Shown here: positions 1-40,671 of the stretch, in pieces
How the letters are laid out: every line of letters begins with the position of its first letter
Numbering within the stretch: position 1 is the first letter of the stretch
IMG/VR virus record: IMGVR_UViG_3300029258_003236
Span: 1 to 44,345 of that record
Reading direction: 5' to 3' (one strand)
Length of the DNA: 44,345 bases
Origin: a virus
Translations under genes and position numbers: made by a program
Notes under the pieces: model-generated
The model's database searches: none
What the model saw: the letters and a program-made list of their open reading frames with translations, nothing else
Told to the model about the DNA's origin: nothing

Positions 1-144
1 ACTACCCCCATGGCCCATACGGACACTGGAAGTGAACACAATAGAAACCAAGTAATATATCTCATTCTAATCCCCCGAGTTATTAGCCCATACACTGTTG
101 CTAAATGATGGCTTGGAGTAGGTACCCTCCCAGAACACGTTTCC
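1..144. repeat. Terminal direct repeat, left copy
   Basis: These 144 bases are identical to 44202-44345, so the window is one full circle plus overlap (unit about 44,201 bp). The repeat covers the last codons of the tailspike gene and the first codons of the next small gene. A coding location fits the ends of a circular or circularly permuted genome better than a dedicated packaging repeat. Confidence 0.95.
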
Positions 145-3100
145 AGTTATATTGTGGTATCCGGAGTCGGAAGCGATGTATAGAGTCTTTTGTCCGGACA
201 TGTCATATGGACTTCCGTTTCCTCCTCTCCAGGTCGAGGCGTCATATTCGAAATTACACCCATGCATGATAAGGCGAGAATAGGTGTCCTCTATTCTAAT
301 TGGGTATTCAGTTACTCCATGAACATAAAAATTGTTCCCCATTAAAGTTAAGTACGAAGATCCGGTAACAGACAGAAGGGCTTCATCGGACCTGGTGACG
401 TAGAACTGGCTATTAGATATAAGGGTAGTAGCCTTATCGCTGGTTTTTATGAGGTCTAAGTAAGGTCCCCCGTTGTCGTTGGACCATTTGAACCTACTGC
501 TACTAATAGTCAGTAGTCCCCCCTCTTGTTCAATCCACTGATGTCTCCGATTGGTCCCAACAACCATTTCCCAATCAGACCCAAGGATTCTTGGTTGCCC
601 ATTGGTAGATGAGTGGGTATCCATTTTCACACTGTTCCTCTCGGTTCGGTAATTTTCCACCACTCCCCAACTACTACTAAACCAAACACCCAGACAGGCC
701 AGGGAGAAAAAATTCTCAATACGCATGTCATCAGCACCCTCCAGATAGATCGAAACAACGGCGTCATCGGGATCCTCTGGCATCGTATCTCCGGCATAGG
801 CTAGATCGTCTCCGCACATAAGGGCATACTGATTATAGTTTACAGCACAGTCTTTTCCCGTTCCTGTGGTGGTAGTCATATCAAAAGAGAAGAAATGTGT
901 ATTGGTGAACCTGCAGGTGTCTAAGATTCGATTGTCACTGTCAGCCGCATAAGTAGTTATTCCGTGCTCAAAAAAGCTACATTCCAACCGGTCTACCCAT
1001 AGACCTCCACAATTCTGATACAAGAATATGCCGTAATTGGCCTTGGATATCCTTACATTAGATATGCGAACTCTATCAACATTAAAAACAGTGATCCCAG
1101 GGGGGTTTTTGGTAACTTGGGATCTGGAGGTAGGACAACTATATTGTTGATAAAAGAGAATCTTCAAGTCTCTAATCTCTACTCCAGAGGCCGTCACATA
1201 AAATACTCCATTCCCGGGACTATCCGCCTTATTTGAGGATCTGGTCCATCCGATACCACTAAATCCAGACGTAGTTTGGATAACGGTCCCAAGACCAGAT
1301 CCCATAATTATTTGCCCTGCATTGTTACACGTTATCTTGGAATTAAAATAGAAAGTCCCATCTTCTAAGTAAACCGGATTTCCAGTGTTAACAGCAGACT
1401 GGACATTGGATACGTCTGTGCTGGCTGATCCGGACGGGGACACGGTCTCCCAATCCCCAAAACCGGAGCTACTTGGCCACGTGGTTCTTAGATCCCCACC
1501 CAAGATTATTCCACTCCCCGCCGTTATATTTCCGGTTGATCTCACGGTCCCACTAACATCCAAGTCGTAGGAGGGAGAGGACGTTCCAATCCCCACATTC
1601 CCGTCCGAATAGTATATATCCGACCCCGAGGGAAGCCAGTATCCCGTAGAAGTGGTGGTGGTGTAGGTCGCGACCCCGGTTCGGACCAGGATCCCGGTAG
1701 ATGAGAAGACCCCATCCAGTTCGGACCCGGATACGGTGTCGTTGGGATCGGTTATATACCCAGCCGAAGCGTGGTTCCCCCAGCCGTAGGCAGTATCCCA
1801 ATGGGACGTGTCGGTTGAGGTGATACTGGCTGCCTCAGATGCCCCAAACACGGGATCGGTTTCAGCCGTTAGATAACCGGCGGAGGCATGGTTCCCCCAC
1901 CCATAGGCGGTATTCCATTCGGAGGATCGGTTCTCTATCCCGTTGGCAAGGGTCTTGGTGTCGGACCCATCCCATGTCGGGATATATCCATCAGTATTGG
2001 ATGACGGGCCGACCACATCCCCGGCCCCGGACGGGGCGGCCCAGGTCCCATCTCCCCGCAAAAATTTGGTGGTTGCCCCGTCCAGCTTGGGCAACAGCCC
2101 GTGTTTGCTTGTGGTGGCGTTGAGGTCGGTGTTGTCGTCCGGGGCTGACAGGTCATCCAGTTTATAGGAGAGGGTAGTGGGGTCCAGCGTCCCGTAAACA
2201 TAGAGGGTCTGGGCGCTCCCGTCCCAGGTAACAGACTGCTCCAGAGTCCCAGCCGTTCCCTGCGCTCCCATGGCGGAGATGGACCAGTCATACACCTCCG
2301 ACCCGCTCCCGGTGGCCGTCGCATTGGAGTAGATCCTGACCCCCTTATCCGAATCGGTGCAATCGGAGTCGATAAAGTATACCTCCGGGTTGGAGTCCGG
2401 ATCGGAGGCCAAGGTGGTGGCAGTTATCACCCCATCGCTATCCACCTCAGCCACGTTGGACCCCCCGGAATCCCGGATAACCAAGGGGTAGGTAGACCCG
2501 TCATCCGTGGTTCCCTTGACCGTCAACCGGCCCACATCCGGAGTCCCATCGAAGTCGGTGTCGTTCACTCCCACGATCCCCGTGGTATAGTAGACGTTAT
2601 CTCCCGTCTGGGACCAGTATCCCGTTTCTCCTGCCCAATTGGCGTCTCCGTAAGCTTTGATGGCCGCTCCATCGGGCAGATTGGACCCGTCCGTTAGTGT
2701 GTCCTCTGCGGTCCGGGTGGCGGCGGACCCAAGACCCAGGGAGGATCGTCCAGTGGCTGCCACTAGGCTATCCGCACCCCCGTCCCACTTCAACCGATCG
2801 ACCCACGCCTCATTCCACTGGAAGGAGTGGCCCCCCAAAGCGATGACGACCCCTCCCACCTCCAGGCCCACATCGGTGAGCTGTAGGCGACGGGCGGCGG
2901 CATCCCCGTCATACATGGTCTCGATGGCGACCCGTCCCCGCTCAGCTCCGGAGCTGACATCCACGGCCTCCACCTCCAGGGTGGCCAGGACTTCGTTGTT
3001 GGCGGCGGCTGTTTCCTGCTCAAATTCCAGACCCAGGCCGATATCGTCTGCTGGGATCCCGGAGGTGGTATGAGAGAGTCGGGCTAAAGGATGAATGGTG

Positions 3101-4179
3101 TCGGTAAGGGCAGAGTCGTATTCGACCTGGAAGAAGCGGTCATGGGTGGAGGTTCCGATGGCGACGTTCCCCGTGGCATAGTTCAGGTCGTCTCCGGCCT
3201 TGGTCCACCATCCTCCACCACCCCAATTTGCTGTTCCGTAGGCGATGATAGCAGCCCCATCGGGGAGGTTGGCCCCATTGGTCAGTGAATCCTCCGCGTC
3301 TCGGGAAGCTGCAGATCCGTAGCCGGAGACGGCGGTATAGGCCGCATCCCAATTGACTATCTTGGCGGCGGTGACCCCGGTGGCGTCTGAGGCGAGGTAG
3401 ACGGGATCCGATTCGGAGGTAAGGTAGCCCGCAGCGGAGTGATCCCCCCAGCCGTAAGCCGTATTCCAGTTATCAGATTGGTTCGCAATTCCCCCGGACA
3501 ATTGGAAGGTGTTCACCCCATCCCATGTCGGGATATAGTCATTGGAGTGGGAGATGGGGGCAAGGACGTCCCCGGACCCCCCACCGGCATTAGCGTCCAC
3601 ATAAGTCTTTATGGCTTTCTCTGTGGGGATAGCCGTGTCTGAATTTCCGGCAAGGGTCCCATCGGTGGAGAATTCATCCACCCGTGCCCCGGCCCCGTCC
3701 AACTGGAGGCCAGTGACCCCAAGGTCGAGAGTGACGCCGCTGTTGGTCTGGAAGCGGATCGACCCCGTCCCGTTGGTGGTTCCCGTGAGGCTGAATCCGG
3801 CATTGTCGGTCTGCTGGAGAAGCACATAGGCTTGGGAGTCGGCGGCGATCTTCAACTGAGCCGATAGATCTGCGGCTGCCCCCAGCCCCAAACGGGACAA
3901 CTGGATGGAGGAGTCGAATGATGGAGCTTCCCCCGAACCCTGGCCGGTCAGGACCGTCCCGAGATCCCCTCCCTGCAGAACCGTGATGACCCCGTGGATA
4001 GATTTGTCCGTGATCCCGGCGGCTCTAACGTTCGACGATAATCCAGTCGAAAGAAGAAGCACTGTCAGCCCCACTATTATACACGTCGAAAGTAGACGTG
4101 GTACGATTGTAGATACTAATCGCCCCGATAGTGGAAGGATCGGCAGTTGTCGGTGTAATGATAACCCTATAGTCTGCAC
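67..4179 (-). CDS. Giant tailspike / tail fibre with beta-helix C-terminus
   Basis: This 1370-codon frame is a structural receptor-binding protein. Residues about 50-900 are low-complexity collar and shaft modules, with repeats such as GYLTSESDPV, NTAYGWGDH and NLPDGAAI...YGDANW. From about residue 915 a parallel beta-helix begins (VYLEDGTFYF, repeated short turns), as in polysaccharide-degrading tailspikes; no catalytic residues are assigned. The start is unresolved. The GTG at 4179 has only a weak upstream GGGGAG and puts 155 nt inside the preceding gene. That N-terminus happens to read like a signal peptide ending VRA-AG. No ATG, GTG or TTG occurs soon after the upstream stop at 4025, so a +1 frameshift from the upstream gene is an alternative. 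The stop is followed after one base by the next gene's ATG (position 65, equal to 44266). Confidence 0.85.
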   Translation of the reverse strand: MQTIGLSLHRQLPILPLSGRLVSTIVPRLLSTCIIVGLTVLLLSTGLSSNVRAAGITDKSIHGVITVLQGGDLGTVLTGQGSGEAPSFDSSIQLSRLGLGAAADLSAQLKIAADSQAYVLLQQTDNAGFSLTGTTNGTGSIRFQTNSGVTLDLGVTGLQLDGAGARVDEFSTDGTLAGNSDTAIPTEKAIKTYVDANAGGGSGDVLAPISHSNDYIPTWDGVNTFQLSGGIANQSDNWNTAYGWGDHSAAGYLTSESDPVYLASDATGVTAAKIVNWDAAYTAVSGYGSAASRDAEDSLTNGANLPDGAAIIAYGTANWGGGGWWTKAGDDLNYATGNVAIGTSTHDRFFQVEYDSALTDTIHPLARLSHTTSGIPADDIGLGLEFEQETAAANNEVLATLEVEAVDVSSGAERGRVAIETMYDGDAAARRLQLTDVGLEVGGVVIALGGHSFQWNEAWVDRLKWDGGADSLVAATGRSSLGLGSAATRTAEDTLTDGSNLPDGAAIKAYGDANWAGETGYWSQTGDNVYYTTGIVGVNDTDFDGTPDVGRLTVKGTTDDGSTYPLVIRDSGGSNVAEVDSDGVITATTLASDPDSNPEVYFIDSDCTDSDKGVRIYSNATATGSGSEVYDWSISAMGAQGTAGTLEQSVTWDGSAQTLYVYGTLDPTTLSYKLDDLSAPDDNTDLNATTSKHGLLPKLDGATTKFLRGDGTWAAPSGAGDVVGPSSNTDGYIPTWDGSDTKTLANGIENRSSEWNTAYGWGNHASAGYLTAETDPVFGASEAASITSTDTSHWDTAYGWGNHASAGYITDPNDTVSGSELDGVFSSTGILVRTGVATYTTTTSTGYWLPSGSDIYYSDGNVGIGTSSPSYDLDVSGTVRSTGNITAGSGIILGGDLRTTWPSSSGFGDWETVSPSGSASTDVSNVQSAVNTGNPVYLEDGTFYFNSKITCNNAGQIIMGSGLGTVIQTTSGFSGIGWTRSSNKADSPGNGVFYVTASGVEIRDLKILFYQQYSCPTSRSQVTKNPPGITVFNVDRVRISNVRISKANYGIFLYQNCGGLWVDRLECSFFEHGITTYAADSDNRILDTCRFTNTHFFSFDMTTTTGTGKDCAVNYNQYALMCGDDLAYAGDTMPEDPDDAVVSIYLEGADDMRIENFFSLACLGVWFSSSWGVVENYRTERNSVKMDTHSSTNGQPRILGSDWEMVVGTNRRHQWIEQEGGLLTISSSRFKWSNDNGGPYLDLIKTSDKATTLISNSQFYVTRSDEALLSVTGSSYLTLMGNNFYVHGVTEYPIRIEDTYSRLIMHGCNFEYDASTWRGGNGSPYDMSGQKTLYIASDSGYHNITGNVFWEGTYSKPSFSNSVWANNSGD

Positions 4180-5837: not shown

Positions 5838-5839
5838 GA

Positions 5840-6844: not shown

Positions 6845-7162
6845 TTAGTCCTCCTTGATATACTCGTCCAGCTCCTCTCTGGACTCATAGGCCCTAACCG
6901 CGTCCATCAGCTCAGCCGCTGTCTTCTTGGGACTAAGGCTCAACTTATACCTTGGGTCACGCTCTACGGCCTCAAGGAGATCAGCTTTGGTGCTAAACTT
7001 CCGGCTCGATAATAGCTCTACCTTGGAAATCAACCAGGGGGGTCCAAACCATCCCTCATCCCAGGCGCGATCAACCGCTTCCTGGGTGGTGAACAATTTG
7101 GATTCCCCATCCTGGTTGTAAAGGAAGGTAGGAGCCAATCGGTAATGATTTACCTGGCTCAT
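6845..7162 (-). CDS. Small head-associated protein
   Basis: 105 aa. The segment LFTTQEAVDRAWDEGWFGPPWL resembles small conserved proteins encoded between coat and head-completion genes in P22-like podoviruses. The rest is helical and charged, with a C-terminal LMDAVRAYESREELDEYIKED. CGGAGG precedes the ATG, and the gene abuts the gp4-like gene, so the two are probably co-translated. Its molecular role is unknown. Assignment as a head protein rests on position and that motif. Confidence 0.7.
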   Translation of the reverse strand: MSQVNHYRLAPTFLYNQDGESKLFTTQEAVDRAWDEGWFGPPWLISKVELLSSRKFSTKADLLEAVERDPRYKLSLSPKKTAAELMDAVRAYESREELDEYIKED

Positions 7163-7173
7163 GTTAGCCTCCG

Positions 7174-9318
7174 TTAATTGTTGTCAGCAAAGGACAGCTC
7201 CAACCAGTTAGTGCCATCATAGATAGCAATGAATGTGTCCCCCGTGTTGTCCAGGGTATGGTCTCCACCGCATACTATGTTTCCGGTCCCGTTCTTAACC
7301 ACAACGGATCGACCGGCGTTGTTGGCTACGATGGTGAGAATATCACCTTCGGTTCCGCCGTTAATGGTGTCGAGGTCATCCGAAGCTCCATCTCCTTCCG
7401 TGTCCACGTTGTGGAAGGATTTGGTGGCCGTGATAACTCCCCCCGAAATGGTCAGCTCGGAGTCGGACCCCAAGTTGGCAGTGGCATTGATTACCGTGTC
7501 TCCGTCAAACCGGGAGGCCCCATCCACTTCCAGGGTTCCCTCAACGAACACGTCATCGTCGCCCGGGGTCACATCCGGGGTTGCCCCGGTCCCCACACGG
7601 ACATAGCCGTTGGCGGCATAGAGAGCGGCATCTATACCAGCCGTGCCACCCACATAGATGGCATGCTGCAGGCCGGTCCCATTGGCATCCGTGTCGATAT
7701 GGATTCCGTGGATTTCATTGTCCGCATTCCCGGCATCGTCATCCATCTGGATCTTGAGACCATGGGCAATTTCCCCGGCCCCAGCCAGGTCGGACTCCAC
7801 ATCGAGGTTAATGGCATGGGACGTGTCGGTAGCCGTTCGGTAGTCGATGTCGATGGCCCCGGCGGTCCCGGTATGAGCCGTGGTCGTTGCGTCCACATAA
7901 AGGGCCTTAAACGCTGCCCCCAGGACGGATTCGAACCCAACGTCCAGGGTGTTGGCGGCATAGAAGCCCTTGGTGGTTGCATTGGTTCCGGCGGCATTTT
8001 CAGCAGAGAAGGCATGGATCACCTCAGCCCCGCTGGTGTCATCGTCCACATCCACCTCGATCCCGTAGGCCAAGGTGGCTCCGTCCTCCAGTTGAACCGT
8101 AAGGGATACGGCCTTGCCGGTGTTGGTCGCGGTCTGGAAATCAATATCCAGTGCTCCCCCGGTGGTAGTGGAGGCGGTGGTATTGGAGTCCAACTTCAAA
8201 TACTCGGCGGCTCCGAAGGTGGCCGTGGTGGTTCCGGCCAGGGCAACCGTACTTGCAAACGTAGCTGCCCCATCTACCTGCATGGCCCCGTCGAACTCGG
8301 ACTCTCCTTCACAGTAGAAATCCTCCCCGTCCATGGAGGCCGTACCGGGAGAACCATTTCCAACCCGCAGGTTGCCCGTAAGGACCTGGAGGGCCTGACC
8401 CGCAGCGTTGGGGGTAAAGGTGGTATGAGACCCGTCCGTCTTGACGAACGTTCCGGTCTCATCAGTTGCATCCTTGAGGATGAGGGAGGGGGAATCCGTG
8501 GTCCCATCGTCCAGTGTCACATTGGAGTCGATAATGGAGGTGATGGACAGGGTATCCGTGTTGGCATTACCAATATCCACGTTCCCGAACATCTCCACGA
8601 CATTGTCGGTGGTGACCTTCCCCGTTGAGGTTCCGCCCAGGGTAATCGTTCCTGTCCCCGCAGCGTCGATGGTAAGGTTAACGTTGCCCGAAGAAGCGGA
8701 CACTACAGACGGTTGGTACATGGTTCCGGTCAGAGTGGTGGTACCCGTCACCGACAGGTTGCCCCCGACGGATAGATCATCGGATAGGGCCATTCCCCCC
8801 GCAGCGGTGATATTGACCTTCTCCACCCCGCCGGTCTTGAAGCTCACAAAGTCCGGGTCGGAGTCGGCCAGTTTAAGTTCAAACAGGGTACCGTCCGTCG
8901 GGTTCCCCGTCTTTTGCTCCAGTACCATACCGCTGACATCCCCAAAGGCCCCGGTAAACCACAAAGTCAACATATCATGGTCCGTATCCCCGAAGTCCAT
9001 ATCGGCGTAATAATCGGTAAAGTCTATGGAGCCATTAGCATCCGGATCTCCGATGTCGTCCCAGGCAGTAGATCCGGACGGGATGAGGGCCGAAACGGTC
9101 CCATCATCGGCCTCGAAATAGAGGTTATTGGCTCGACCAAACAACCTCCACCAGCCGGAAGCGGGGTCCCCGCTGGGGTTAGAGGAGAGTTCCGGCCCCA
9201 GGACGTAGTTGTCCGGGGCGGGCTTGAGCTGAATGTCGGAGAACCGATCCTCCAGGCCAGCCCAAGCGGGAGTCGCCATAAAGGCGAGTGCGACAAGGGC
9301 GAAAATAAATCGTTTCAT
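7174..9318 (-). CDS. Signal-peptide fibre-like virion or exported protein
   Basis: 714 aa. It begins with a textbook Sec signal peptide: MKR, then a hydrophobic core (FIFALVALAFMATP), then AWA before GLEDRF. The mature part is a repetitive beta-rich fibre-like chain rich in Gly, Thr, Asp and Ser (GNLSVTGTTTLTGT, ATFGAAEYLKLDSNTT, VTPGDDDVFVEGTLEVDGASRFDGD). Its end, DILTIVANNAGRSVVVKNGTG, is seen in many phage fibre-like proteins. It sits immediately after the coat gene with its own AGGAG site. A signal peptide is odd for a virion component assembled in the cytoplasm. Either it is exported or the peptide is retained. No enzymatic motif was seen. Confidence 0.8.
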   Translation of the reverse strand: MKRFIFALVALAFMATPAWAGLEDRFSDIQLKPAPDNYVLGPELSSNPSGDPASGWWRLFGRANNLYFEADDGTVSALIPSGSTAWDDIGDPDANGSIDFTDYYADMDFGDTDHDMLTLWFTGAFGDVSGMVLEQKTGNPTDGTLFELKLADSDPDFVSFKTGGVEKVNITAAGGMALSDDLSVGGNLSVTGTTTLTGTMYQPSVVSASSGNVNLTIDAAGTGTITLGGTSTGKVTTDNVVEMFGNVDIGNANTDTLSITSIIDSNVTLDDGTTDSPSLILKDATDETGTFVKTDGSHTTFTPNAAGQALQVLTGNLRVGNGSPGTASMDGEDFYCEGESEFDGAMQVDGAATFASTVALAGTTTATFGAAEYLKLDSNTTASTTTGGALDIDFQTATNTGKAVSLTVQLEDGATLAYGIEVDVDDDTSGAEVIHAFSAENAAGTNATTKGFYAANTLDVGFESVLGAAFKALYVDATTTAHTGTAGAIDIDYRTATDTSHAINLDVESDLAGAGEIAHGLKIQMDDDAGNADNEIHGIHIDTDANGTGLQHAIYVGGTAGIDAALYAANGYVRVGTGATPDVTPGDDDVFVEGTLEVDGASRFDGDTVINATANLGSDSELTISGGVITATKSFHNVDTEGDGASDDLDTINGGTEGDILTIVANNAGRSVVVKNGTGNIVCGGDHTLDNTGDTFIAIYDGTNWLELSFADNN

Positions 9319-9348
9319 AGTAATCTCCTATGGCTATGGCCTAAAGGG

Positions 9349-10599
9349 TTAACCGGTAATCCTCACTCCCAATTCCGCTCGGATAGTATCCCAGCCGAAC
9401 AGAATATCCAACCTGGTGATCTCCTTATAGTTGGAGATGTCATAGGCGGTGGCTACAGTGATGGCCATACCCAACTGCGGATCCGAAGCCTGTGCCCACA
9501 TCACGGACTGCCCGGCGGACTTGGGCTTCTCGAACGGCACCATGGTCATGGCAAAACAGTCCGGATGGAAAGCCAAATTCTGCGGATATCCCGTGGCTTC
9601 CGTGCCCACAATGGATACTGCAGCCCCGTTCTGGGGAAGGGTACCCACCGTCTGGTAGGGGAGATTGTCTTCCCCAGCAGCAGAGGAGTAGATGGTGGGG
9701 GAAATGGGAACAGTAGCTTCCCCAGATCCGTTAGAGGTGACGTCGGCAGTGACCACAAACTGGCGCAATTCGCTCCCTTCCCACACGGAACCGGAGACGG
9801 GATTGACGCCGTAGACTGCGGCTATGGTGATAATGTCCCCCTGCTTGAGGACGGCAGTGGAATTGGCCCAGCCGTCAATAGCCAGGGAGGAGGCCCCCTC
9901 AGCCGTGGCCCCATTCATCACCGGCGTGGAGCCGGAGGTATGGGTGCCGGTGGTATGGGTCTGGATGTTCTGATCCATGAAGAAGTCCATCAGAGCAAAG
10001 CGCCCAATGAACCCCTTTCGGATCAGGGTATCAACCATATTCTGCTGGAAGACGCCCTTCAATTCACCGTCGGCCATAGACCAGTGAGCCTTGGGGGAAA
10101 GGACGCAGATCCGGTTTTCACGGGGAACGGCCTCATTGTCCATGCGGGTAGCAGCATCGGCCAGTACCCCAAAAGTTGCGGGGGTGGTCCCAGCAGTACC
10201 CACCAGATTGTAGATGTTCTTATATTCCTCACACCCAAGCTCATCGACCTTATTGGCAAGGGCGATGGTGGCAGGGACGATATATTTTCGGGAGAACCCC
10301 TCAATTTCCAGGGTGAGATCCTTCTCCAGAAAGTCCCAGGCTACGTGTTTGTGTTCATCAACCGTCACGGTCGTGTTTCGCTCATCGATATCGACCAGAT
10401 CAATGGTAGCCCCATCCTTGGTCCGGAATTTGTTGGGGAGCTGGACGCGGACAGAATCTCCACGTTTGTACCCACCAACGGCGGCATTGAACTGGTTGTT
10501 ATATCCCTTATACACGTGACGGCCAAAGGTCAACTGGTTCTGTAAATCGAACAGTGCCCTTTCAGCGATCATTGAATGAGTAAGGAAAGAATCAGACAT
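9349..10599 (-). CDS. Major coat protein, P22 gp5 family
   Basis: 416 aa. The N-terminal half follows the P22 gp5-type HK97-fold coat pattern: SFLTHSMIAERALFDLQNQL, RHVYKGYNN, YKRGDSVRVQLPNKF, DEHKHVAWDFLEKDLTLEI, and IVPATIALANKVDE. The C-terminal half has IYSSAAGEDNLPYQTVG and NLAFHPDCFAMTM followed by YKEITRLDILFGW, both typical of this family. Residues about 225-345 probably form the inserted domain. AGGAG lies upstream of the ATG. The scaffold gene ends 10 nt earlier, giving the canonical portal-scaffold-coat order. Confidence 0.93.
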   Translation of the reverse strand: MSDSFLTHSMIAERALFDLQNQLTFGRHVYKGYNNQFNAAVGGYKRGDSVRVQLPNKFRTKDGATIDLVDIDERNTTVTVDEHKHVAWDFLEKDLTLEIEGFSRKYIVPATIALANKVDELGCEEYKNIYNLVGTAGTTPATFGVLADAATRMDNEAVPRENRICVLSPKAHWSMADGELKGVFQQNMVDTLIRKGFIGRFALMDFFMDQNIQTHTTGTHTSGSTPVMNGATAEGASSLAIDGWANSTAVLKQGDIITIAAVYGVNPVSGSVWEGSELRQFVVTADVTSNGSGEATVPISPTIYSSAAGEDNLPYQTVGTLPQNGAAVSIVGTEATGYPQNLAFHPDCFAMTMVPFEKPKSAGQSVMWAQASDPQLGMAITVATAYDISNYKEITRLDILFGWDTIRAELGVRITG

Positions 10600-10608
10600 G
10601 ATGATCTC

Positions 10609-11388
10609 CTATTTGCCGGGAGGTTGGACCCCCAGGCTCTGCAGACGCTCCCTCTCCCACTTGGCGTGTAGCTCAGCCCTGGACATCTTGGACTCAGGCT
10701 TGGGGGGCGGGTTTCCCCCTCCCCCCACTTTAGCCGGAGGATTCGGAGCGTTGGTTGTCTTTGGGGATTTAGAGGTGATCTTAACCTCTATCTTCCCTAT
10801 TTCCTTGGCTTGGGCCAGAGGAGGAAGGGATGCAATTCGTGAGGCTTCGGACGAGTGTTGACCCAAATAGTACAATATATCCCCCATGTTGTCCCCTACA
10901 GCCGCATCATACATCTCCTGGCTGATCGGAACATTGGGGGAAAGGGCCACGTCATCAAAGTCCTCGTATTTCTCGCGAGATTTGGATAGCGTCTCCTGGA
11001 GTTGGCGTTTGGTCTTCTCCTTCCGTTCCTTCTCCCGTTCGGCTTCCCATTCGCCCCGGACCTCTTCCCGGATCTGTTTGGCTAGAGCAGATATGTACTC
11101 TTCATCCGAGTCAAAATCCACTCGCTTCAATCCGGGCTTCGGTTCTTCGTTCGGCGGGGTCGATCTGGCAGACGATTCGGCTACCCCCCTCCAGTAGGCC
11201 GCTTCCCTCTCGGCATCTCTCCTCTTCCTGGTTAGCTCGTTAATGCGACGGGATACCCCGTCCCCCTTGGGTGGTGTTTCCCCAGTGGGTGTTTCCCCAG
11301 TGGGTGTTTCCCCCGTAGGTGTCCCTGGAGGTGTCTCCTCCCCCGTTCCGACTGTCGCGGTCTCTTCGACCGTATTTTCTGGCTCCAC
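10609..11388 (-). CDS. Capsid scaffolding protein
   Basis: 259 aa from a GTG start with AAAGGAG upstream. The acidic, Pro/Thr-rich N-terminus carries a pentapeptide repeat (TGETP, about residues 25-39). A long charged, probably coiled-coil middle follows (INELTRKRRDAEREAAYWRG, then QIREEVRGEWEAEREKERKE), with a basic C-terminal tail (KWERERLQSLGV). Composition, length and position directly before the coat gene match P22 gp8-type scaffolds, which direct procapsid assembly and leave before DNA packaging. Confidence 0.85.
   Translation of the reverse strand: MEPENTVEETATVGTGEETPPGTPTGETPTGETPTGETPPKGDGVSRRINELTRKRRDAEREAAYWRGVAESSARSTPPNEEPKPGLKRVDFDSDEEYISALAKQIREEVRGEWEAEREKERKEKTKRQLQETLSKSREKYEDFDDVALSPNVPISQEMYDAAVGDNMGDILYYLGQHSSEASRIASLPPLAQAKEIGKIEVKITSKSPKTTNAPNPPAKVGGGGNPPPKPESKMSRAELHAKWERERLQSLGVQPPGK
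11273..11317 (-). repeat. 15-bp tandem repeat in the scaffold gene
   Basis: Three near-perfect 15-bp units (GGTGTTTCCCCAGTG on the plus strand) encode the TGETP repeats of the scaffold N-terminus, and a degenerate fourth unit follows. Slippage here would change the length of the acidic tail in frame. Confidence 0.9.
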
Positions 11389-11418
11389 GGCTTCTCCTTT
11401 CAGCGGCGCAAGGCCGGA

Positions 11419-11604
11419 TTAAATCGCCCGAGACTTCTCGGTACTTTGTTTGCGGTTAACTCCTGTAATTTCCACTTTTCCTTTACGGACTGTGAAGTGG
11501 ACCCGGTTCCCTTGCTGGTCGATCACAGTCCGGGACTTCATAGGTCTCCCGTCAAGGGCAGCCCGGTTTCTAAGCGACTCAATATCTCCATTCCTCAAGG
11601 TCAT
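11419..11604 (-). CDS. Small hypothetical protein between portal and scaffold
   Basis: 61 aa, basic. The start ATG overlaps the portal stop (ATGA) and a GGAGG lies 6 nt upstream, so it is translated by coupling. The sequence includes NRVHFTVRKGKVEITGVNRK, a short predicted beta hairpin. I do not recognise the family. Retention between portal and scaffold suggests a small structural or assembly factor. Confidence 0.65.
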   Translation of the reverse strand: MTLRNGDIESLRNRAALDGRPMKSRTVIDQQGNRVHFTVRKGKVEITGVNRKQSTEKSRAI

Positions 11605-13571
11605 TCCGTACCTCCCTGCTGTCCAAATCCGAGGGCCTGCAGGGCACCAGAGGCTCCAGCTTCGGCCACCCCCTGTTCATGCCCATCCAGTTCCCTTCTT
11701 TGTTCAACAATATCCAGTTTCTTCTTCAAGTTGCCGAGTTCAATGGAATTGGCCTTTAGCCTCTTGATTATCTCGTCGATGGAGGGGGGCTGGGGCTGGG
11801 GAGGACCCTCATCATCGATCCCGGGGGGAAGCAACTTCCGGAGCCGGTTGGCTATCTTCTGCGCCCCGGGCCAGTCCTGGTTCTCGGCTATCAAGTCCAT
11901 GACCAGGGAGGCCGTATCGGGTGCGGTCCGCACGAAGTCCAGCATGGACTCTGCAGCCTCTACCCGCTGGGTAGTGAAGGACGGGCCAGTGGTGACCACT
12001 ATCTTATATCTCCCCATGGACAGGTCGTTTACCAACACGTTCTCCCCGCTCTCGTCATCGAACACCTCCTGGTTGACGGAGACCATCTTCTCCCTTTCCA
12101 TCTCGTCCATGATCAGGACCTGCCTCTCCGTGTCATATATCTTGGGGATGAGATCCACTAGGATGTCCCCACAAAATTTCACACCCCGGCGAAGGTTGTC
12201 GTGGTAGATGAAGTTGGCCACATCCCCCTCTCGCTGTCTGGCCAAGATGGCCCGGCCCGATACCTCATTGGACTGTGCCCCCAAACTGGCATCGAATAGG
12301 GAGGTGGTAGCCTTGATCTCGTCGTTAGCCAAGTTGGATTCCGTCATCTCCCCTATGGCGGTCTGGGTTACCACGTTCCTCTCTGGTGCTCCCACCCCAG
12401 ATACTGCCTTGTAGAGAAGGTAGGGAAGGTTGGTTCGGCCCACAGAGGACCACTCCTCCTCGTGTCCCTCAATCTGTCTCTCCTCCATGATGTAGGGAGC
12501 CTTGGGGGCCAGGGCAACCGTCTCTGTGGCGGCGGTCCGGAAATAGTTATACATCCTCTGGGGATCCTTGGCGAACCGGATCAGTCCCCGGATGAACACC
12601 TCATCGTCAACTACTATCTCCTTACCAAGCACCCGGACGATCGGGATGTAGCGACCCGGCCAGTCCGTCCTGGATATTACCTTGTCTCCCCCGATTAGAT
12701 ACTGAACCACTTTGTGGGTCTTCACATCTCGGGTCCGGGTAACGGTGGGGACCTCCTTGGCGTCTGGATCCCCGGCGGCAATCTCCTGCAGCTCATCTAC
12801 TATCTTATCCCACTGGTCGAGATCCACGGTGCGACCATCGGACAGGAGGCCGAGGCGTTTAGTTACTGGCTCCTTGGTCCAGTATTCGGCCACCTGGACC
12901 ATGTCCTCCTCGATCCACAATTGGCTGCCGTTCGACATTTCCGCAGAGAAGGGAGACGCCTCCACCCCATATCGGGCCTTCATCTCCTTCCGGGAGATCT
13001 TCTCCACTATGAAGACGAATCGGGCGTCCCTCCCGTCCGGTTCCTGGGTCTGATTGTCGAAATAGACGGATAGGGGGTTCCGGATTCTGCGGATGTATAT
13101 CTCCTGCTCAAAAGTGGAATCCCCCGCATACTCAGAGTCGATGCGGAAATATCCGAATCCGTTATTAACCGACCCCTCCAGGGCAGTCTGATACGCAATA
13201 TCGGAGTCGGAAACCACCTCAATATTGCGGATCATCCCCTGAATGGTCTGGGCCACCTGCTCAGTGGATCCCCCACCGGACGGCCTCACCTTGATGGAGG
13301 TCTTGTTGAGGCGGGCATCGTTTATCACCTGGTCAACAAAGGAGGGCAGCTTGTTGACCGTAAGGCAGGGTCTCTCCGTCAGCTCCCTATTCCGGACTAT
13401 GCTCCCAGGCCAATGGTCCTTACCTGCTAGCATCCTCAGGTCTTCCCGGGCTTCGTCCCTGTTGGCAGCTTCGAAGGAATCTACCGTCTGGAAGCGGGAA
13501 TGGGCCTCATCTATGATCGCGTCATCCCCCTTGAGGTCCGGATTGCGGGTGTCTACTATCGTCTTATCCAT
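11601..13571 (-). CDS. Portal protein, P22 gp1 family
   Basis: 656 aa from the ATG at 13571, which overlaps the preceding gene's stop by 8 nt. Family features include DSFEAANRDEAREDLRMLAG near the N-terminus, LTERPCLTVNKLPSFVDQVIND, NNGFGYFRIDSEY, DPQRMYNYFRTAATE, KAPYIM, SNEVSGRAILARQREGDVA and RYKIVVTTGPSFTTQR. It would form the dodecameric channel for DNA packaging and ejection. The C-terminus (about residues 590-656) is helical and Gln-rich, possibly the barrel. It is followed by the small gene and the scaffold, as expected. Confidence 0.95.
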   Translation of the reverse strand: MDKTIVDTRNPDLKGDDAIIDEAHSRFQTVDSFEAANRDEAREDLRMLAGKDHWPGSIVRNRELTERPCLTVNKLPSFVDQVINDARLNKTSIKVRPSGGGSTEQVAQTIQGMIRNIEVVSDSDIAYQTALEGSVNNGFGYFRIDSEYAGDSTFEQEIYIRRIRNPLSVYFDNQTQEPDGRDARFVFIVEKISRKEMKARYGVEASPFSAEMSNGSQLWIEEDMVQVAEYWTKEPVTKRLGLLSDGRTVDLDQWDKIVDELQEIAAGDPDAKEVPTVTRTRDVKTHKVVQYLIGGDKVISRTDWPGRYIPIVRVLGKEIVVDDEVFIRGLIRFAKDPQRMYNYFRTAATETVALAPKAPYIMEERQIEGHEEEWSSVGRTNLPYLLYKAVSGVGAPERNVVTQTAIGEMTESNLANDEIKATTSLFDASLGAQSNEVSGRAILARQREGDVANFIYHDNLRRGVKFCGDILVDLIPKIYDTERQVLIMDEMEREKMVSVNQEVFDDESGENVLVNDLSMGRYKIVVTTGPSFTTQRVEAAESMLDFVRTAPDTASLVMDLIAENQDWPGAQKIANRLRKLLPPGIDDEGPPQPQPPSIDEIIKRLKANSIELGNLKKKLDIVEQRRELDGHEQGVAEAGASGALQALGFGQQGGTE

Positions 13572-13737
13572 CCTTAACCCCACGTGATAAATAGCCGACC
13601 AGCCCTCCCCCAATGGCGCTTACTACCTCTTTGGCCCCGGCCTCCATGAACACCATCGCCCCATAGGCAATAGCGGCCAGGACCACAATGGTCAGCTCTT
13701 CGGACAGGTCTGTGGTCCACCACGGTTTCTTGTCCAT
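13564..13737 (-). CDS. Small membrane protein, holin candidate
   Basis: 57 aa. A polar N-terminus (MDKKPWWTTDLSEE) is followed by two short hydrophobic stretches (LTIVVLAAIAYGAMVFM; VVSAIGGGLVGYL) and a positively charged end (SRGVKDG). It begins at the TAATG junction with the preceding gene and overlaps the portal start. Length, two hydrophobic segments, charge distribution and closeness to the endopeptidase fit a small holin. No family match is claimed. Confidence 0.65.
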   Translation of the reverse strand: MDKKPWWTTDLSEELTIVVLAAIAYGAMVFMEAGAKEVVSAIGGGLVGYLSRGVKDG

Positions 13738-14006
13738 TACTCCTCCTCACTCGGAAACAGTACCCCGCAAATGGCGTCCACCATCTGGGAGATGAACGGC
13801 TCCAGTTTGATCCAGGTTTCCTGTTGACCTCCAGTGGACAACGAGATGATGGCCATCACGACGGATTTAACCCCCGACATAACCATCTCTTTCTTCTGTT
13901 CACCGGATTCGGGGACATCATCAAATAGTTTCTCGGCTATGACGATGAGATTTGTGACCAGGGGTAAAATTCTTGCAACCAGCAGAAAATAACTTAGTGC
14001 TCCCAT
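13737..14006 (-). CDS. Small membrane-associated lysis-region protein
   Basis: 89 aa. The N-terminal hydrophobic segment (YFLLVARILPLVTNLIVIAE) is followed by an acidic linker, a second moderately hydrophobic helix (SGVKSVVMAIISL) and a third (FISQMVDAICGVLF). GGAGG lies upstream, and its stop overlaps the next start (TAATG). Similar Leu/Ile-rich short proteins with the pattern LP...IEK..P..G..K are common near phage lysis genes. It could be a holin, an antiholin, or something unrelated to lysis. Confidence 0.6.
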   Translation of the reverse strand: MGALSYFLLVARILPLVTNLIVIAEKLFDDVPESGEQKKEMVMSGVKSVVMAIISLSTGGQQETWIKLEPFISQMVDAICGVLFPSEEE

Positions 14007-14015
14007 TTTGTCCTC

Positions 14016-14375
14016 CTATTCGCCGTTGTGTTTCTCCATTTTTCTCAAAAGGTCCTTTATATCCCTCATGTCCTTGGACATCCCCTTTTGGGACTCCCGG
14101 ATCTCTCGGACGTCCCGTTTTATATATTTTAGGTTCTCCTCCGTCTTCAACACGCGCTCCTTTACCGCAGAATGATCAGACTTGGAAGCAAACCGAAGGA
14201 AATCCGACTCCTGGCCGGACCAGACCTTTATTCCGGTAACCATTAAGGGAATCCCGATGGCGGTAATGCCTCCCCAGAGGAAAAGTTTAGATTTGAGAAG
14301 ATCCTTTTTGGAAACCTTCTCATTCAAACAAAGAAGCATACTCTCGTGACATTTGGGGTGGTCGCAGTCAGTCAT
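14016..14375 (-). CDS. Membrane-anchored coiled-coil protein of the lysis region
   Basis: 119 aa from the ATG at 14375, just after the endopeptidase stop. The N-terminus has a possible metal-binding CDHPKCHE motif. One transmembrane segment follows (about residues 35-55, FLWGGITAIGIPLMVTGIKV), then an amphipathic charged helix to the C-terminus with heptad-like spacing (ENLKYIKRDVREIRESQKG). The layout suggests a membrane-tethered coiled coil, possibly spanin-like or a holin accessory. I do not recognise the family with certainty. Confidence 0.65.
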   Translation of the reverse strand: MTDCDHPKCHESMLLCLNEKVSKKDLLKSKLFLWGGITAIGIPLMVTGIKVWSGQESDFLRFASKSDHSAVKERVLKTEENLKYIKRDVREIRESQKGMSKDMRDIKDLLRKMEKHNGE

Positions 14376-14379
14376 GGCC

Positions 14380-14688
14380 TCATCCGTTATACTGCATGTG
14401 AATATGGACTTTTTCCTTTTCGTACCCAACAAAATACAGACTCCCAAGGGTCTTCCAGATCCGGTCGGCCCAGACACGTGGATCCCCGGGGAAATCCCGG
14501 GTCCGGATGTCAAAGGCCAGACCCAGATAGTGTTTGGAAGTATGTTTGTGGATCCCGTCGCATCCGGAGGTGATCGTCACCTCATAGTCCAAGGGGGCCA
14601 CCAACTGCGCCACCCAGACCATACGGGTAACTTCCGGCAGAAGAAAACTGGACTCGTGAATCATTACTCCCGGTTTAATCCGAATCAT
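14380..14688 (-). CDS. M15-type peptidoglycan endopeptidase (endolysin)
   Basis: 102 aa. The sequence SKHYLGLAFDI (H53, D60) followed by VHIHMQY (H95, H97) is the zinc-site pattern of M15-like D-Ala-D-Ala or L-Ala-D-Glu peptidases found in phage endolysins. The length is typical of single-domain M15 enzymes. No signal peptide is visible, so it would need a holin, and candidate membrane genes lie directly downstream. The start overlaps the previous stop (ATGA) with GAGG upstream. The predicted role is cutting the peptide stem of the cell wall at lysis. Confidence 0.8.
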   Translation of the reverse strand: MIRIKPGVMIHESSFLLPEVTRMVWVAQLVAPLDYEVTITSGCDGIHKHTSKHYLGLAFDIRTRDFPGDPRVWADRIWKTLGSLYFVGYEKEKVHIHMQYNG

Positions 14689-14975
14689 ACCATCCTCGGC
14701 AAAGATAAAATGTTAGTTCTCCAGGATTCCGGCTCCCATACACTACCGGCCCCCATATATTGGGCCTCTTCCAAATCCGCCGTCACCACGTTATTGAGAA
14801 GTTCAACCGTGGTTAAACCACTTCCAGCGGAGTAAGAAGCGGAATAGACAGTGGAATAAACCGATCCCCCGGGTACCAGAGTCAACTTTACCTTCTGGCC
14901 AGACTCAAAGACGTCAGTCTGATCCCCGGAGATCGTGAAGGTGGTGGAATCGACATATGTTGCGGTCAGTCCCAT
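14685..14975 (-). CDS. Small beta-rich structural protein
   Basis: 96 aa from the ATG that overlaps the preceding stop (TAATG). It is beta-rich (LTATYVDSTTFTISGDQ, KVKLTLVPGGSVYSTV, LTTVELLNNVVT), has no signal peptide, and is Gly/Ser/Thr-rich. The pattern resembles small head-decoration or fibre-base proteins of other phages, but I recognise no named family. It lies between a signal-peptide FN3 protein and the endopeptidase. Confidence 0.6.
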   Translation of the reverse strand: MGLTATYVDSTTFTISGDQTDVFESGQKVKLTLVPGGSVYSTVYSASYSAGSGLTTVELLNNVVTADLEEAQYMGAGSVWEPESWRTNILSLPRMV

Positions 14976-15298
14976 TATTCCACGCCTACCCCCGTCGGAT
15001 GGTTTGGAGGTTGCCACGGGGCGCAGTACCAGGCTCCAGCTTCATACCTAATGGCCTCGGCGGAACTGTTATAGGCACTAACGCGGAATAGGACTAATCC
15101 AGAGTCGGGGACCCCCGTGTAGGTATATTCGGTTACATCCCCAACGTCTACCCCGGAATCCCAGGTCTGTCCCCCATCCGTGCTGGTATAGATCCGATAC
15201 CCTGTTGCATTGTCCGAAGGATCCCAGGAGAGGGAAACATCTGCAGCCCAGACCGGAGAGGTAATAAGAGCAAATAAAATAGCCAGTATCAGTCTCAT
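14975..15298 (-). CDS. Signal-peptide fibronectin type III protein
   Basis: 107 aa from the ATG at 15298 (GGAGG upstream). The Sec signal peptide is MRLILAILFALITSPVWA with cleavage before ADVSLS. The mature part is a single fibronectin type III domain: VSLSWDPSDNATGYRIYTS, a central strand, then TYTGVPDSGLVLFRVSAYN. FN3 domains are common carbohydrate- or surface-adhesion add-ons of phage virions. Here the domain is predicted to be exported. It follows another signal-peptide gene, and its stop overlaps the next start. Confidence 0.78.
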   Translation of the reverse strand: MRLILAILFALITSPVWAADVSLSWDPSDNATGYRIYTSTDGGQTWDSGVDVGDVTEYTYTGVPDSGLVLFRVSAYNSSAEAIRYEAGAWYCAPWQPPNHPTGVGVE

Positions 15299-15312
15299 TT
15301 GGGTTCCTCCCC

Positions 15313-17010
15313 TTAAAACGTACAGGGTATCAATTTCCACTTATACCCAAGATCTGGATCTGTATCCACAGTTGACCAATCTACATCAATCATGGCCTTG
15401 GCAATGGTGCTGTTTAGCTTTGCACCGCTTGTTTGTTTCTGTGCTTCCATCGCCCTTGTAGACGTTTCCAAGTAGTCGCCATTTTCAATATTTCCGTTGG
15501 TATCGGTGACTCGAATCTTGAACAAGCCAACCTGAGCAATTAGATAAACTGGGTCTGTATCCTTTCCGAAACTCATCCCCTTTGCATCATCGGACATTTT
15601 GCCTAACATCACCCCATAGACGCTTTTATCCGATGCCGTGGTTGTTGTGTCCACATAGACGAAATATTCTTTGTTGGGTTTCAATTTGGAAACGGTTTTT
15701 TCGAGATAAAAACCATCATCCTTTTTTATATATCCCGGTTTGATAGTATAAAATTGCCGTGTTTTCGGATGAAAATAAACCCCGTCCTTTAGCCGTTTTT
15801 TGTGGACGGTCTTAGTTCCATATGTATAGGTAATGGCCTCTTTCTCCTCGCTTGTTTCGGAGTCGAATGAATAGGTGGATTCCTGAGAAAGGATATTGTC
15901 CTTGTCCTCAACTTCCACATTCACGATTTCAACCGCATCCGCTTTGTCAATAATGTTTACAGCATCAAGCGGCTTTACTTTGGTATATTTCTGTTTCGAC
16001 ACTGAGCACGGAATTATCTCTCCGGTTGAAACGACGACTGCACCAACAGGTAGCTCCGATTGACCTTCCTGTAGCTGAGTGTAATGGCTGCCGACAAATG
16101 CGTTATACGACGTTGTGTTACCGGCTATGGAAACATTACCTTCAACCGTGTCTGCCGATTCAAAATCCACAATGACACCATCCCCTGACCTGTTGACGGC
16201 AAGTGGATTGCCGGGTGCTGTCGTCCCGATGCCGACGTTGCCGGAGGTATTGTTTACAGCGATTGTTGTTCCGATAGTGCTGTGGTATAATTTTGCAATA
16301 CCTCCATCTGCATACCACCCCCATTTGTCATTTATGTCAGTAGGATAATTTGCTCGGTCTGTGAATGTAACTGAGGCTGCTACCCCAGTTGAGTAAACAG
16401 TTCCAGCAACATCCAACATCGCCACCGGACTCGCCGTCCCGATGCCGACTCGATTATTATCCCCCTCATACACAAACCCACCGCTATCAATGTTGAAGTC
16501 ATCCCCCGAGTCTGAGCCAAGGGTCACGGCAATCGCACCACCGGAATCAGAGGATATGCTGTCGAGGGCTATGTTGCCGACGTTGGTGATGTTAGCGTCA
16601 CCAGCATCGAACCCATCCGCTGTCATGGACCCCGTGGATGTCAGATCCGTTCCATCCGTGGAGAGGGGGGAATCCTCAAACCCACCGGCTCCGGAGGCCA
16701 TGCTGGGAATATTACCATCCGTGACGTCGGTCAAGTCCACGGTCCCGAAGCTCCCGTCCCCCGTGGTGCTCAGCGTCTCATTACCGAACGAAATGGCCCC
16801 GCTGGTGTCGGTGATCGACCCGCTATTGATCGTCAAATTCCCAGCCGATACGGCCCCACTGGCATCCAGACTGGTCCCCGTGGCCACTCCGATATCCGGA
16901 GTAGTGAAGGTCCCCCCAACCACCTCCACCCCGTTGACGGTGAGGGTCGCCCCAGCCGCAACGGGAAGCAAAGTAATCAGTAAACCGAAGAGTATGGCTA
17001 ATCGTTTCAT
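15313..17010 (-). CDS. Signal-peptide fibre protein with AT-rich C-terminal domain
   Basis: 565 aa from the ATG at 17010, preferred over 17022 because GGAGG lies 5 nt upstream. The Sec signal peptide MKRLAILFGLLITLLPVAAGA precedes TLTVNG. Residues about 25-200 are fibre repeats (NLTINSGSI, ITNVGNIAL, GIGTASPVAMLDVAGTVYSTG). The last 280 residues are a distinct domain (FVGSHYTQLQEGQSELPVGA ... GLFKIRVTDTNGNIENGDYLETS) that resembles the C-terminal chaperone-like domains of tail fibres; this match is tentative. DNA of that domain (about 15313-16430) is visibly AT-richer than its neighbours, a sign of module transfer. Confidence 0.75.
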   Translation of the reverse strand: MKRLAILFGLLITLLPVAAGATLTVNGVEVVGGTFTTPDIGVATGTSLDASGAVSAGNLTINSGSITDTSGAISFGNETLSTTGDGSFGTVDLTDVTDGNIPSMASGAGGFEDSPLSTDGTDLTSTGSMTADGFDAGDANITNVGNIALDSISSDSGGAIAVTLGSDSGDDFNIDSGGFVYEGDNNRVGIGTASPVAMLDVAGTVYSTGVAASVTFTDRANYPTDINDKWGWYADGGIAKLYHSTIGTTIAVNNTSGNVGIGTTAPGNPLAVNRSGDGVIVDFESADTVEGNVSIAGNTTSYNAFVGSHYTQLQEGQSELPVGAVVVSTGEIIPCSVSKQKYTKVKPLDAVNIIDKADAVEIVNVEVEDKDNILSQESTYSFDSETSEEKEAITYTYGTKTVHKKRLKDGVYFHPKTRQFYTIKPGYIKKDDGFYLEKTVSKLKPNKEYFVYVDTTTTASDKSVYGVMLGKMSDDAKGMSFGKDTDPVYLIAQVGLFKIRVTDTNGNIENGDYLETSTRAMEAQKQTSGAKLNSTIAKAMIDVDWSTVDTDPDLGYKWKLIPCTF

Positions 17011-17021
17011 CTTGGCCTCCA

Positions 17022-17453
17022 TTATCTAAGTTTGTAGGTTACGGCGAGGCCATAGGTGCGACCGGACCCGTTGGTCCAGGCAAAGTCCAGGGCCGAACCG
17101 GCGGGGAAGATGGCCTCCCCCGGGTTATATTGGACCAAGACGTCTGTGGCCGTGGTCATGTCCTGAGTGAGCCAGACCGTGTCATATTCCGCCCCCCGGA
17201 CTGAATCGTGGGTGACAGTCAGATCATTTGCTCCCCCAGCAGCAGATAGGTGAAGTTCAATAGACACCAGCTCCATGACCTTCACCCCCTGAGTGGGAAT
17301 GGTAAGGGAGGCGGAGATGTCGGATGAGCCGGTCACATAGAAGTGGCGGATGGCCTGGACTGTGGGAATACCACTGGATATCTGAACATCGGCGGCCTGT
17401 GCTCCAGCCACGGTCATAAGGACGAACAGCAGTGCAATAAGCAGACGTTTCAT
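17022..17453 (-). CDS. Signal-peptide structural-like protein
   Basis: 143 aa. The Sec signal peptide MKRLLIALLFVLMTVAGAQA precedes ADVQIS. The mature 123 residues are beta-rich (IRHFYVTGSSDISASLTIP, VKVMELVSIELHLSAAGG, LVQYNPGEAIFPAGSALDFAW) and end in YGLAVTYKLR, like a small single-domain surface protein. The start overlaps the previous gene's stop (ATGA). Phages often have such a protein near the terminase without a known role. The signal peptide is the distinctive feature. Confidence 0.72.
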   Translation of the reverse strand: MKRLLIALLFVLMTVAGAQAADVQISSGIPTVQAIRHFYVTGSSDISASLTIPTQGVKVMELVSIELHLSAAGGANDLTVTHDSVRGAEYDTVWLTQDMTTATDVLVQYNPGEAIFPAGSALDFAWTNGSGRTYGLAVTYKLR

Positions 17454-20416: not shown

Positions 20417-20486
20417 CCGCGGCTTCCTACCTGCCAGACTTCACCCCACCTGCAGTTACCAGCCAGTCAACACCGTTAACCTTGAC

Positions 20487-29885: not shown

Positions 29886-30143
29886 ATGATAAAGGTTATT
29901 ATGACAATAGCAATCGCCACGGTCCTCCTGGCCTCACCCATGGTGGTCATGGCCGACTATAAGGCCGATGTGAAGAAGGCCGTCGACCAGGAGCTGATCA
30001 ACTTCTACGAACAGGAGAAGGGAAACAAGGTGACGGAATACTCCATTCGTGGACTGATCGGACGACTGACGGCCATTATGGACCGGTTCGTTATCAAGGA
30101 GGTGCCCCCGGCTCCCGAACCGCCCAAGGCTGAGACCAATTGA
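29886..30143 (+). CDS. Small signal-peptide protein in the replication operon
   Basis: 85 aa. The signal peptide MIKVIMTIAIATVLLASPMVVMA precedes DYKADV. The mature 62 residues are helical (VKKAVDQELINFYEQEKGNK) and end in a Pro-rich tail (EVPPAPEPPKAE). It is the only signal-peptide protein in the rightward arm. It would be periplasmic, possibly for superinfection exclusion or envelope modification, which is a guess. AAGGAGACAGAC precedes the ATG. Confidence 0.65.
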   Translation: MIKVIMTIAIATVLLASPMVVMADYKADVKKAVDQELINFYEQEKGNKVTEYSIRGLIGRLTAIMDRFVIKEVPPAPEPPKAETN

Positions 30144-35914: not shown

Positions 35915-36066
35915 TGTTCTGGATTGGATTTGCGGTGGGGCTGTGTGTTGGGCTGGTGGTCAGCGGAGTGTGCTATTCCTCATCCAGGGCCGACCTGGAA
36001 ACTGAGCTGCTGGAGACCCAGGCGAAGTTGAGGCGCACACTCCGAGGGGAATTACCGAATCGCTAA
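35914..36066 (+). CDS. Small membrane protein, last gene of the rightward arm
   Basis: 50 aa starting at the TGATG junction with the polymerase stop. One transmembrane segment (MFWIGFAVGLCVGLVVSGV) is followed by a charged helix (DLETELLETQAKLRRTLRG). Its last 15 nt overlap the 3' end of the convergent fibre gene at 36052. No terminator is visible in the overlap. Confidence 0.6.
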   Translation: MFWIGFAVGLCVGLVVSGVCYSSSRADLETELLETQAKLRRTLRGELPNR

Positions 36067-37104
36067 ATAGAAGACATAAGCGGTTCCCGTCTTTGCCCCC
36101 GCCTTGGCCCATGTGATGGTGAACCCGTCGGACCCCATGGCCGACACATAGCCGGTGGCATACACCCCACCCCCTTCATCAAGGTAGATGGATTTGGTTA
36201 GGTTGGACGTGTAGCAGTTGGCATTGTTGTTATGGTCGTCGCTGATGCAATAGTGATTGGTCCCGTTGTCCAGTCCGATGCTCATTTCCCCGGTGGCTGC
36301 TCCGATCTGGGTAAAAAGCAACATAATGGCGGGGGAGAATCCCACTCCCGTGGTGGCAACGGCTCCCGTGGTGGAGGTGTCATGGGAAACATAGCCGATC
36401 TTCAATCCGGACCCCCAGGCCGGGGCCGTCCCCCCCGCATTCATGAAAAGCTTTTGATCAGCAGACCCCTTTGCCAGTCTGGCCAGGGTGTTGGCGGCAC
36501 TGGCATACAGGAGATCACCGGCGGCTGTGAGGACAGATTGGGGGGAAGCGGCCCACTCCGGAGCTGAGACCCCGCTGTTGGTCTGCAGGACTTGCCGGGC
36601 AGTACCGATCCCGAGACGGGCGAGGACGTTGGCAGCCGAGGCGATGAGAAGGTCGCCTTGGGTGGTCAGGGTCCCCGCCGACCCAGCTCCCCACTCCGGA
36701 GCTGTGGCCCCGCTATTCATCCGGAGAACCTGGCGGGCGGTCCCCTTGGCCAGACGAGTGAGACTGTCCGCCCCATCGGCATAGAGGAGATCCCCGGAGG
36801 CGTCTACCAAAGCCGGGATTTCCCCTCCGGGAGCATCGATCCCGTCCATGGACCAGAGGACCACGTCATTCTCATCTTTCAACACAAATTTATAGGCCCC
36901 ATCGTCAGCGTCTATCCAAACGGAGCACTCCCCATTGGAGTCGAGGATGATGGGGTTAGTGTTGGGGGTGGCCTTATACCAGTTGGTATAGGTGGTCTTG
37001 GGGGTGGAGCTGTTGTGCGCATAGGTGTACAGCTTCCCCCCGGCTACCGGATTCCCGTCTTCGTCTATGGCGATGAACCGTGCATTTGGCATAAAGGTGA
37101 TCAT
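36052..37104 (-). CDS. Short tail fibre / receptor-binding protein
   Basis: 350 aa. The N-terminal MPNARFIAIDEDGNPVAGGK followed by LYTYAHNSSTPKTTYTNW and NTNPIILDSNGECSVWI is the conserved virion-attachment domain of podoviral tail appendages. The shaft has three repeats of the type GDLLYASAANTLARLAKG with a QVLQTNSGVSAPEW spacer. The C-terminal 120 residues form a separate beta domain (LKIGYVSHDTSTT...AYVFYLAIR) likely to contact the receptor. It is the last gene of the late arm. Confidence 0.85.
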   Translation of the reverse strand: MITFMPNARFIAIDEDGNPVAGGKLYTYAHNSSTPKTTYTNWYKATPNTNPIILDSNGECSVWIDADDGAYKFVLKDENDVVLWSMDGIDAPGGEIPALVDASGDLLYADGADSLTRLAKGTARQVLRMNSGATAPEWGAGSAGTLTTQGDLLIASAANVLARLGIGTARQVLQTNSGVSAPEWAASPQSVLTAAGDLLYASAANTLARLAKGSADQKLFMNAGGTAPAWGSGLKIGYVSHDTSTTGAVATTGVGFSPAIMLLFTQIGAATGEMSIGLDNGTNHYCISDDHNNNANCYTSNLTKSIYLDEGGGVYATGYVSAMGSDGFTITWAKAGAKTGTAYVFYLAIR

Positions 37105-40669: not shown

Positions 40670-40671
40670 GA

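Follow-up and report, generated by a model that had tools for sequence, protein, structure and literature searches.

The window, by which we mean the whole 44,345 bp stretch of viral DNA analysed here, encodes fibre-like proteins that start with signal peptides (SPs) of a type predicted to be cleaved. The best explanation, to which we give a probability of about one half, is that such proteins are exported through the Sec pathway, cleaved by signal peptidase (SPase), folded in the periplasm and docked on virions at or after lysis. For each of two unrelated virion-docking modules there are forms with an SP and forms that lack it, and the mature start of the SP-bearing form coincides with the start of the SP-less form. 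In both module families the SP stands at the start of the module, and thus it appears to be a prefix on the natural N-terminus of virion-docking modules. The sequences themselves show the SPs, their conservation, the identical mature start and that the tailspike module is homologous to a head-binding domain of solved structure.

Under this model, the phage group would use the host Sec pathway to export part of its own virion surface. The long fibres attached to the capsid (the 7174-9318 family), and in relatives also tailspikes, would be made with a cleavable SP joined to the natural N-terminus of a virion-docking module. The cut by SPase I would leave the same mature N-terminus at which SP-less versions start, and the SP-less Met-Gly versions presumably lose the Met. 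The fibres would then fold and trimerise in the periplasm, away from the capsids maturing in the cytoplasm, and would dock when the membranes fail at lysis. In its broadest form the proposal falls somewhat short of an even chance: a tailed dsDNA phage lineage may complete its particles outside the cytoplasm, with Sec-exported capsid fibres and tailspikes that SPase I trims to a fixed N-terminus and that join the virions in the periplasm or the lysate, and virion assembly would therefore span two compartments. Some points weigh against the model. The window's own tailspike has no SP, and therefore even this clade does not use SP routing throughout. Exported fibres would also need to meet capsids before dilution.

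The window, a complete viral contig, carries a terminal direct repeat of 144 bp. By homology and its gp1/gp8/gp5/gp4/gp10-type gene order, it is a complete, uncultured P22-like podovirus; the P22-like module makes up the late genes, all on the minus strand (Table 1). A profile of the clade's coats matched the gene 5 protein in the PDB (E 5e-9). The cultured cousins have Vibrio, Shewanella and Xanthomonas as hosts, and their coats are about 34-36% identical to that of the window. Coat and post-coat queries found no prophage or bacterial homologues in genome contigs that would point to a host.

Table 1. Structural and SP-bearing genes of the window (^, predicted SP cleavage site).
Position	Strand	Feature	SP^mature start	Match or support
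67..4179	-	1370-aa tail-fibre-like protein		phrog_9729 tail fiber, E 3e-19
4425-5843	-	gp10-like		
5840-6844	-	gp4-like		
6845..7162	-	Small conserved structural protein		Synteny with VvAW1
7174..9318	-	Capsid-adjacent fibre: SP (1-20), mature GLEDRFSDIQL, fibre shaft, C-terminal beta domain	MKRFIFALVALAFMATPAWA^GLEDRFS	
9349..10599	-	Major coat protein, P22 gp5-like, no SP		phrog_283, E 2e-75
10609-11388	-	Scaffold		
11601-13613	-	Portal		
14975..15298	-	Secreted fn3-like domain protein	MRLILAILFALITSPVWA^ADVS	SP call; weak fn3 / F5_F8 matches below cut-off
15313..17010	-	Fibre-like SP protein, TerL-portal cassette	MKRLAILFGLLITLLPVAAGA^TLTV	SP-bearing counterpart in L005 (5823-6572), same position
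17022..17453	-	Small SP protein, conserved mature ADVQISSG...	MKRLLIALLFVLMTVAGAQA^ADVQ	L005 homologue with its own SP, 50% identity
17578-19008	-	TerL		
29886..30143	+	Small SP protein, early arm, not a fibre	MIKVIMTIAIATVLLASPMVVMA^DYKA	SP call
36052..37104	-	Tail fibre/spike, head-binding domain at very N-terminus, no SP		
37101-41412	-	Ejection-type proteins		
41809..44070	-	SP and pectate-lyase-fold tailspike-like protein	MKLISWIIGLVLLATPCWA^ADKT	PF12708, E 8e-18; PHROG tail spike/tail protein profiles
44057..44266	-	Small SP protein overlapping start of 41809-44070; mature part a 51-residue stub	MRYITWFLLCSLPVSVWA^MGVV	SP call

Several other features of the window were seen. A gene directly upstream of TerL (19005-19787, minus strand) has a Sulfotransferase-family domain (PF13469, E 1e-7). 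Short direct repeats (TTGGCACG...CGTGCCAAA, CGTTGGTTAAAGCTGACCAG, ACAAGCCGTTGTGGT) cluster at 20237-20720, between the divergent arms, and are a candidate origin or regulatory region. A PurZ-like adenylosuccinate synthetase is encoded at 25217-26296 (minus strand; phrog_1211 E 2e-59; NCBIfam PurZ 185 bits, under the cut-off of 300) and contains GGQAGSEAKGK, in which Ser replaces the Asp of PurA. A PolA with a UDG-like N-terminal domain and a weak DpoZ match is encoded at 33080-35914 (plus strand). Together, these two genes point to a possible diaminopurine (Z) genome; no DatZ or MazZ was found among the few ORFs searched.

An earlier note on this DNA had listed seven proteins as starting with Sec SPs; inspection and a rule-based predictor agree that all seven SPs are real and of the Sec/SPase I type. 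The predictor is our own rule set, which looks for a positive n-region, an uncharged h-region and an A-x-A-like site. All seven ORFs are present where they had been placed, with positive n-regions, hydrophobic h-regions, A-x-A-like c-regions and start codons preceded by a Shine-Dalgarno (SD) sequence, which is clear in six of the seven and weak only at 44057-44266. The same rules called SPs in 0/158 core structural genes of the clade loci, 0/91 core structural genes in 11 contigs, 9/389 other genes and 0.7% of shuffled N-termini. Given these results with core genes and shuffled sequences, chance hydrophobic ORFs were rejected as the source of the calls, and the conservation of the SP pattern across genomes is, in our judgement, stronger evidence than the predictor score. 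The set was also said to be fibre-like and late, which is wrong for 29886-30143. That all of its members are virion proteins is a premise that may not hold for 14975-15298, 44057-44266 and 29886-30143.

The capsid-adjacent fibre gene lies directly 3' of the coat gene. A survey of relatives, which the earlier note had proposed as a check on SP conservation, found an SP in 19/19 distinct long post-coat homologues of 216-869 aa (18 from IMG/VR plus the window). The relatives came from IMG/VR scans, and their coats are mostly 58-77% identical, some being more distant. The predictor accepted 16 of 19 database entries; L020, L023 and L026 were accepted by eye. Directly behind the SP comes a conserved mature start, G[LIMFV]xDRxSxIxL, and identity within the family is 53% in the mature part versus 22% in the SP part. 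Cleavage is predicted at A^G in 18 of the 19 long forms, the exception being TGG^AMDRFS in L023. Four short homologues of 121-155 aa (L027, L032, L035 and L102, of which L102 may be frame-shifted or truncated) have no SP and start M-G[LI]xDRxS, with the Met immediately before the conserved Gly. Mis-called starts were rejected as a source of these forms, since an SD of their own precedes them and no SP is encoded in frame upstream of the Met. On a coat tree, in which some forks are weak, the four fall in four separate places among the SP-bearing rows. Thus, SP and shaft have been gained or lost repeatedly with the mature start kept. No SP gene follows the coat in the cultured cousins VvAW1, PBR31 and X14 or in the environmental genome ctNMl277. 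The counterpart of 6845-7162 directly follows the coat in the cultured cousins; in the window the SP-bearing fibre is inserted before it. Among the near-identical relatives L031-L034 (coat tree distance about 0.002), L032 has a post-coat gene and L034 has repeat-rich sequence instead, an accessory gene having recently been lost.

In the AF2 model of a short form, residues 1-25 are a disordered N-terminal arm, followed by a beta-sandwich (pLDDT 80). The best structural matches of the beta-sandwich are virion spikes and fibre connectors, including CBA120 TSP4 (Z 10.6) and T4 gp9 (Z 8.5). It also matches the capsid spike of Pseudomonas phage Pa223 (9ny6_C) over 98 residues (rmsd 3.4) at Z 8.0, a score also within reach of unrelated models. 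By sequence, a profile of the short-form family retrieved no solved relative, and PDB matches of the post-coat N-terminal domain (PknD, FemX) were weak and judged to be chance. Gene position and fold suggest that GxxDRxSxIxL has a capsid-docking role, and the capsid would then be the partner of this family. In many other contigs, a portal-(scaffold)-425-aa gene block is followed by a short SP-less protein that has the same C-terminal domain, and gene order suggests that the 425-aa gene of that block is the coat. Elsewhere, the domain occurs in a few SP-bearing proteins (L060, L091 and apparently L095/L096). Proteins of ~123 aa with a single conserved beta domain are encoded after a ~425-aa gene, behind portal and scaffold, in many IMG/VR contigs (L054-L098; e.g., 7923-8291 in L063) and also occur in the large-phage contigs L057, L070 and L101. 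They look like a widespread, unnamed capsid decoration family.

The second module is the head-binding domain of the tailspike at 36052-37104. Compared with the solved tailspike domain 7eeq, the family profile scored E 1.4e-12 and the window member alone E 0.006; SP-bearing relatives taken singly reached E 2e-8 (G004) and 4e-7. Five related contigs have an SP in front of this domain, called by the predictor in G004 and G005, at a laxer cut-off in G001 and G011, and by eye in G002, where the SP ends in TMAC and could be a weak lipobox. An SP also precedes it in another phage (L302), which has a TTG start and no matching coat on the contig. The domain begins at the encoded N-terminus in the window and not in these six SP-bearing contigs. 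In G005, the PDB tail spike match begins at residue 21, the SP cleavage site, and is aligned to chain residue 2. The docking domain of the SP-bearing spikes is conserved and their distal parts are divergent, which would fit receptor-binding proteins. Among the 111 classified IMG/VR loci of the last scans, 108 have no SP before the domain, the three exceptions being SP-bearing contigs already named; nor is there one in the 15 cultured or deposited records examined. No SP was called in an earlier set of 79 IMG/VR loci, of which a handful of rows were in the wrong frame.

The SP proteins at 15313-17010 and 17022-17453 have SP-bearing counterparts in the same TerL-portal interval of L005; an AF2 model of the latter, built from two sequences, was unusable (pLDDT 43). 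An SP-less counterpart of the N-terminal module of 41809-44070 was not detected in phages or in the fetched loci. The protein at 67-4179, absent from the earlier list, has a GTG start with GGGGAG and hydrophobic residues at about 30-45, followed by ...SSNVRA^AG. It probably carries an extended SP and would be the eighth SP protein; we say only probably because the predictor rejects such a long n-region. SP-bearing genes of fibre size lie between gp4 and gp10 in the more distant L047 and L049/G011, and therefore the SP habit reaches beyond the clade.

Two options had been offered for the SP-bearing proteins, decoration of the host surface and pick-up by the virion at or after lysis. Pick-up is the better supported, with docking modules kept at the mature N-terminus and SP-less versions elsewhere; pure host-surface decoration leaves the conserved docking modules unexplained. 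The SP-bearing proteins could also act more generally on the infected cell, with exported fibres occupying or altering receptors or the envelope. Such action could be superinfection exclusion or could keep progeny from sticking to debris, and known phage SP proteins of tail-fibre regions, e.g., lambda Lom, do act on the host (PMC12309495), as do other phage envelope proteins. The SP trio between TerL and portal adjoins lysis-type genes, which also fits. We nevertheless consider action on the infected cell unlikely, if worth keeping in mind. It does not predict conserved docking modules, yet the tailspike head-binding domain, known for virion binding, is conserved and intact after the SP. Furthermore, SP-less homologues are ordinary structural genes in position, and Pfam and inspection of the SPs found no lipobox or membrane-barrel family match in the SP proteins of the window.

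It is more doubtful still that the SPs, though real, were captured together with fibre modules from secreted bacterial adhesins like the MAT (mosaic adhesive trimer) proteins and are tolerated, with part of the protein escaping export and assembling in the cytoplasm. Bacteria do secrete SP-bearing, phage-fibre-like proteins (Bdellovibrio MAT, PMC10769870; WceF, PMC7949094), but scanning 84,980 genomes of bacteria and archaea revealed no relative of the docking module. The SP sequences vary freely, yet their make-up and exact cleavage position are kept in nearly all 19 homologues, and this requires continuing selection. Least probable, and by our estimate very much so, is that the hydrophobic segment stays uncleaved and anchors fibres or maturing capsids in the inner membrane while they assemble. 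In favour of this, the SPs of L004, L040 and L026 are long or have a weak -3 position, but A-x-A sites at a fixed place and the conserved mature start in SP-less forms favour removal.

The textbook view is that the virions of tailed phages assemble wholly in the cytoplasm. If receptor-binding fibres instead pass through the periplasm, the last assembly step would take place at lysis. Fibres could then possibly come from neighbouring cells as well, giving progeny of one genome with the spikes of another phage. The annotation of such spikes would be affected, as they are easily mistaken for bacterial secreted proteins, and so would their expression in the laboratory. Pairs of SP-bearing and SP-less homologues with one mature start make the idea directly testable.

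Virion proteins with cleaved Sec SPs are familiar from the filamentous phages, whose coat proteins pIII and pVIII are of this kind and whose virions assemble in the inner membrane with extrusion; here, in contrast, the phage is a tailed dsDNA phage. The head-binding domain of short-tailed phage tailspikes (PDB 7eeq, 9vyg/9vyh) is matched significantly by the SP-bearing relatives right behind the SP, whereas in SP-less members the domain lies at the N-terminus or close to it. Capsid spikes (e.g., Pa223 9ny6, Z 8.0), head fibres and capsid decoration proteins share the gene position beside the coat and perhaps a similar beta-sandwich, but in other phages the short proteins that carry this domain almost all lack an SP. 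The lambda Lom gene lies between tail spike and fibre genes, and its product enters the host membrane (PMC12309495). Lom and similar envelope proteins are phage-encoded, Sec-exported and near tail genes, as here, but Lom is a membrane barrel without a virion-docking module. In the open-access papers searched, no report of SP-bearing tailspikes in tailed phages was found. The nearest earlier idea is that of the bacterial MAT proteins. The Bdellovibrio MAT superfamily has a conserved, beta-rich domain of ~130 aa after the SP (PMC10769870); one MAT subfamily ends in an S74 chaperone/protease domain, for which there was no Pfam match in the window fibres. By description, the MAT proteins share with the fibres studied here an SP and a phage-fibre-like trimeric adhesin design, but they are encoded by the bacterium for its own surface, whereas here the genes are phage late genes.
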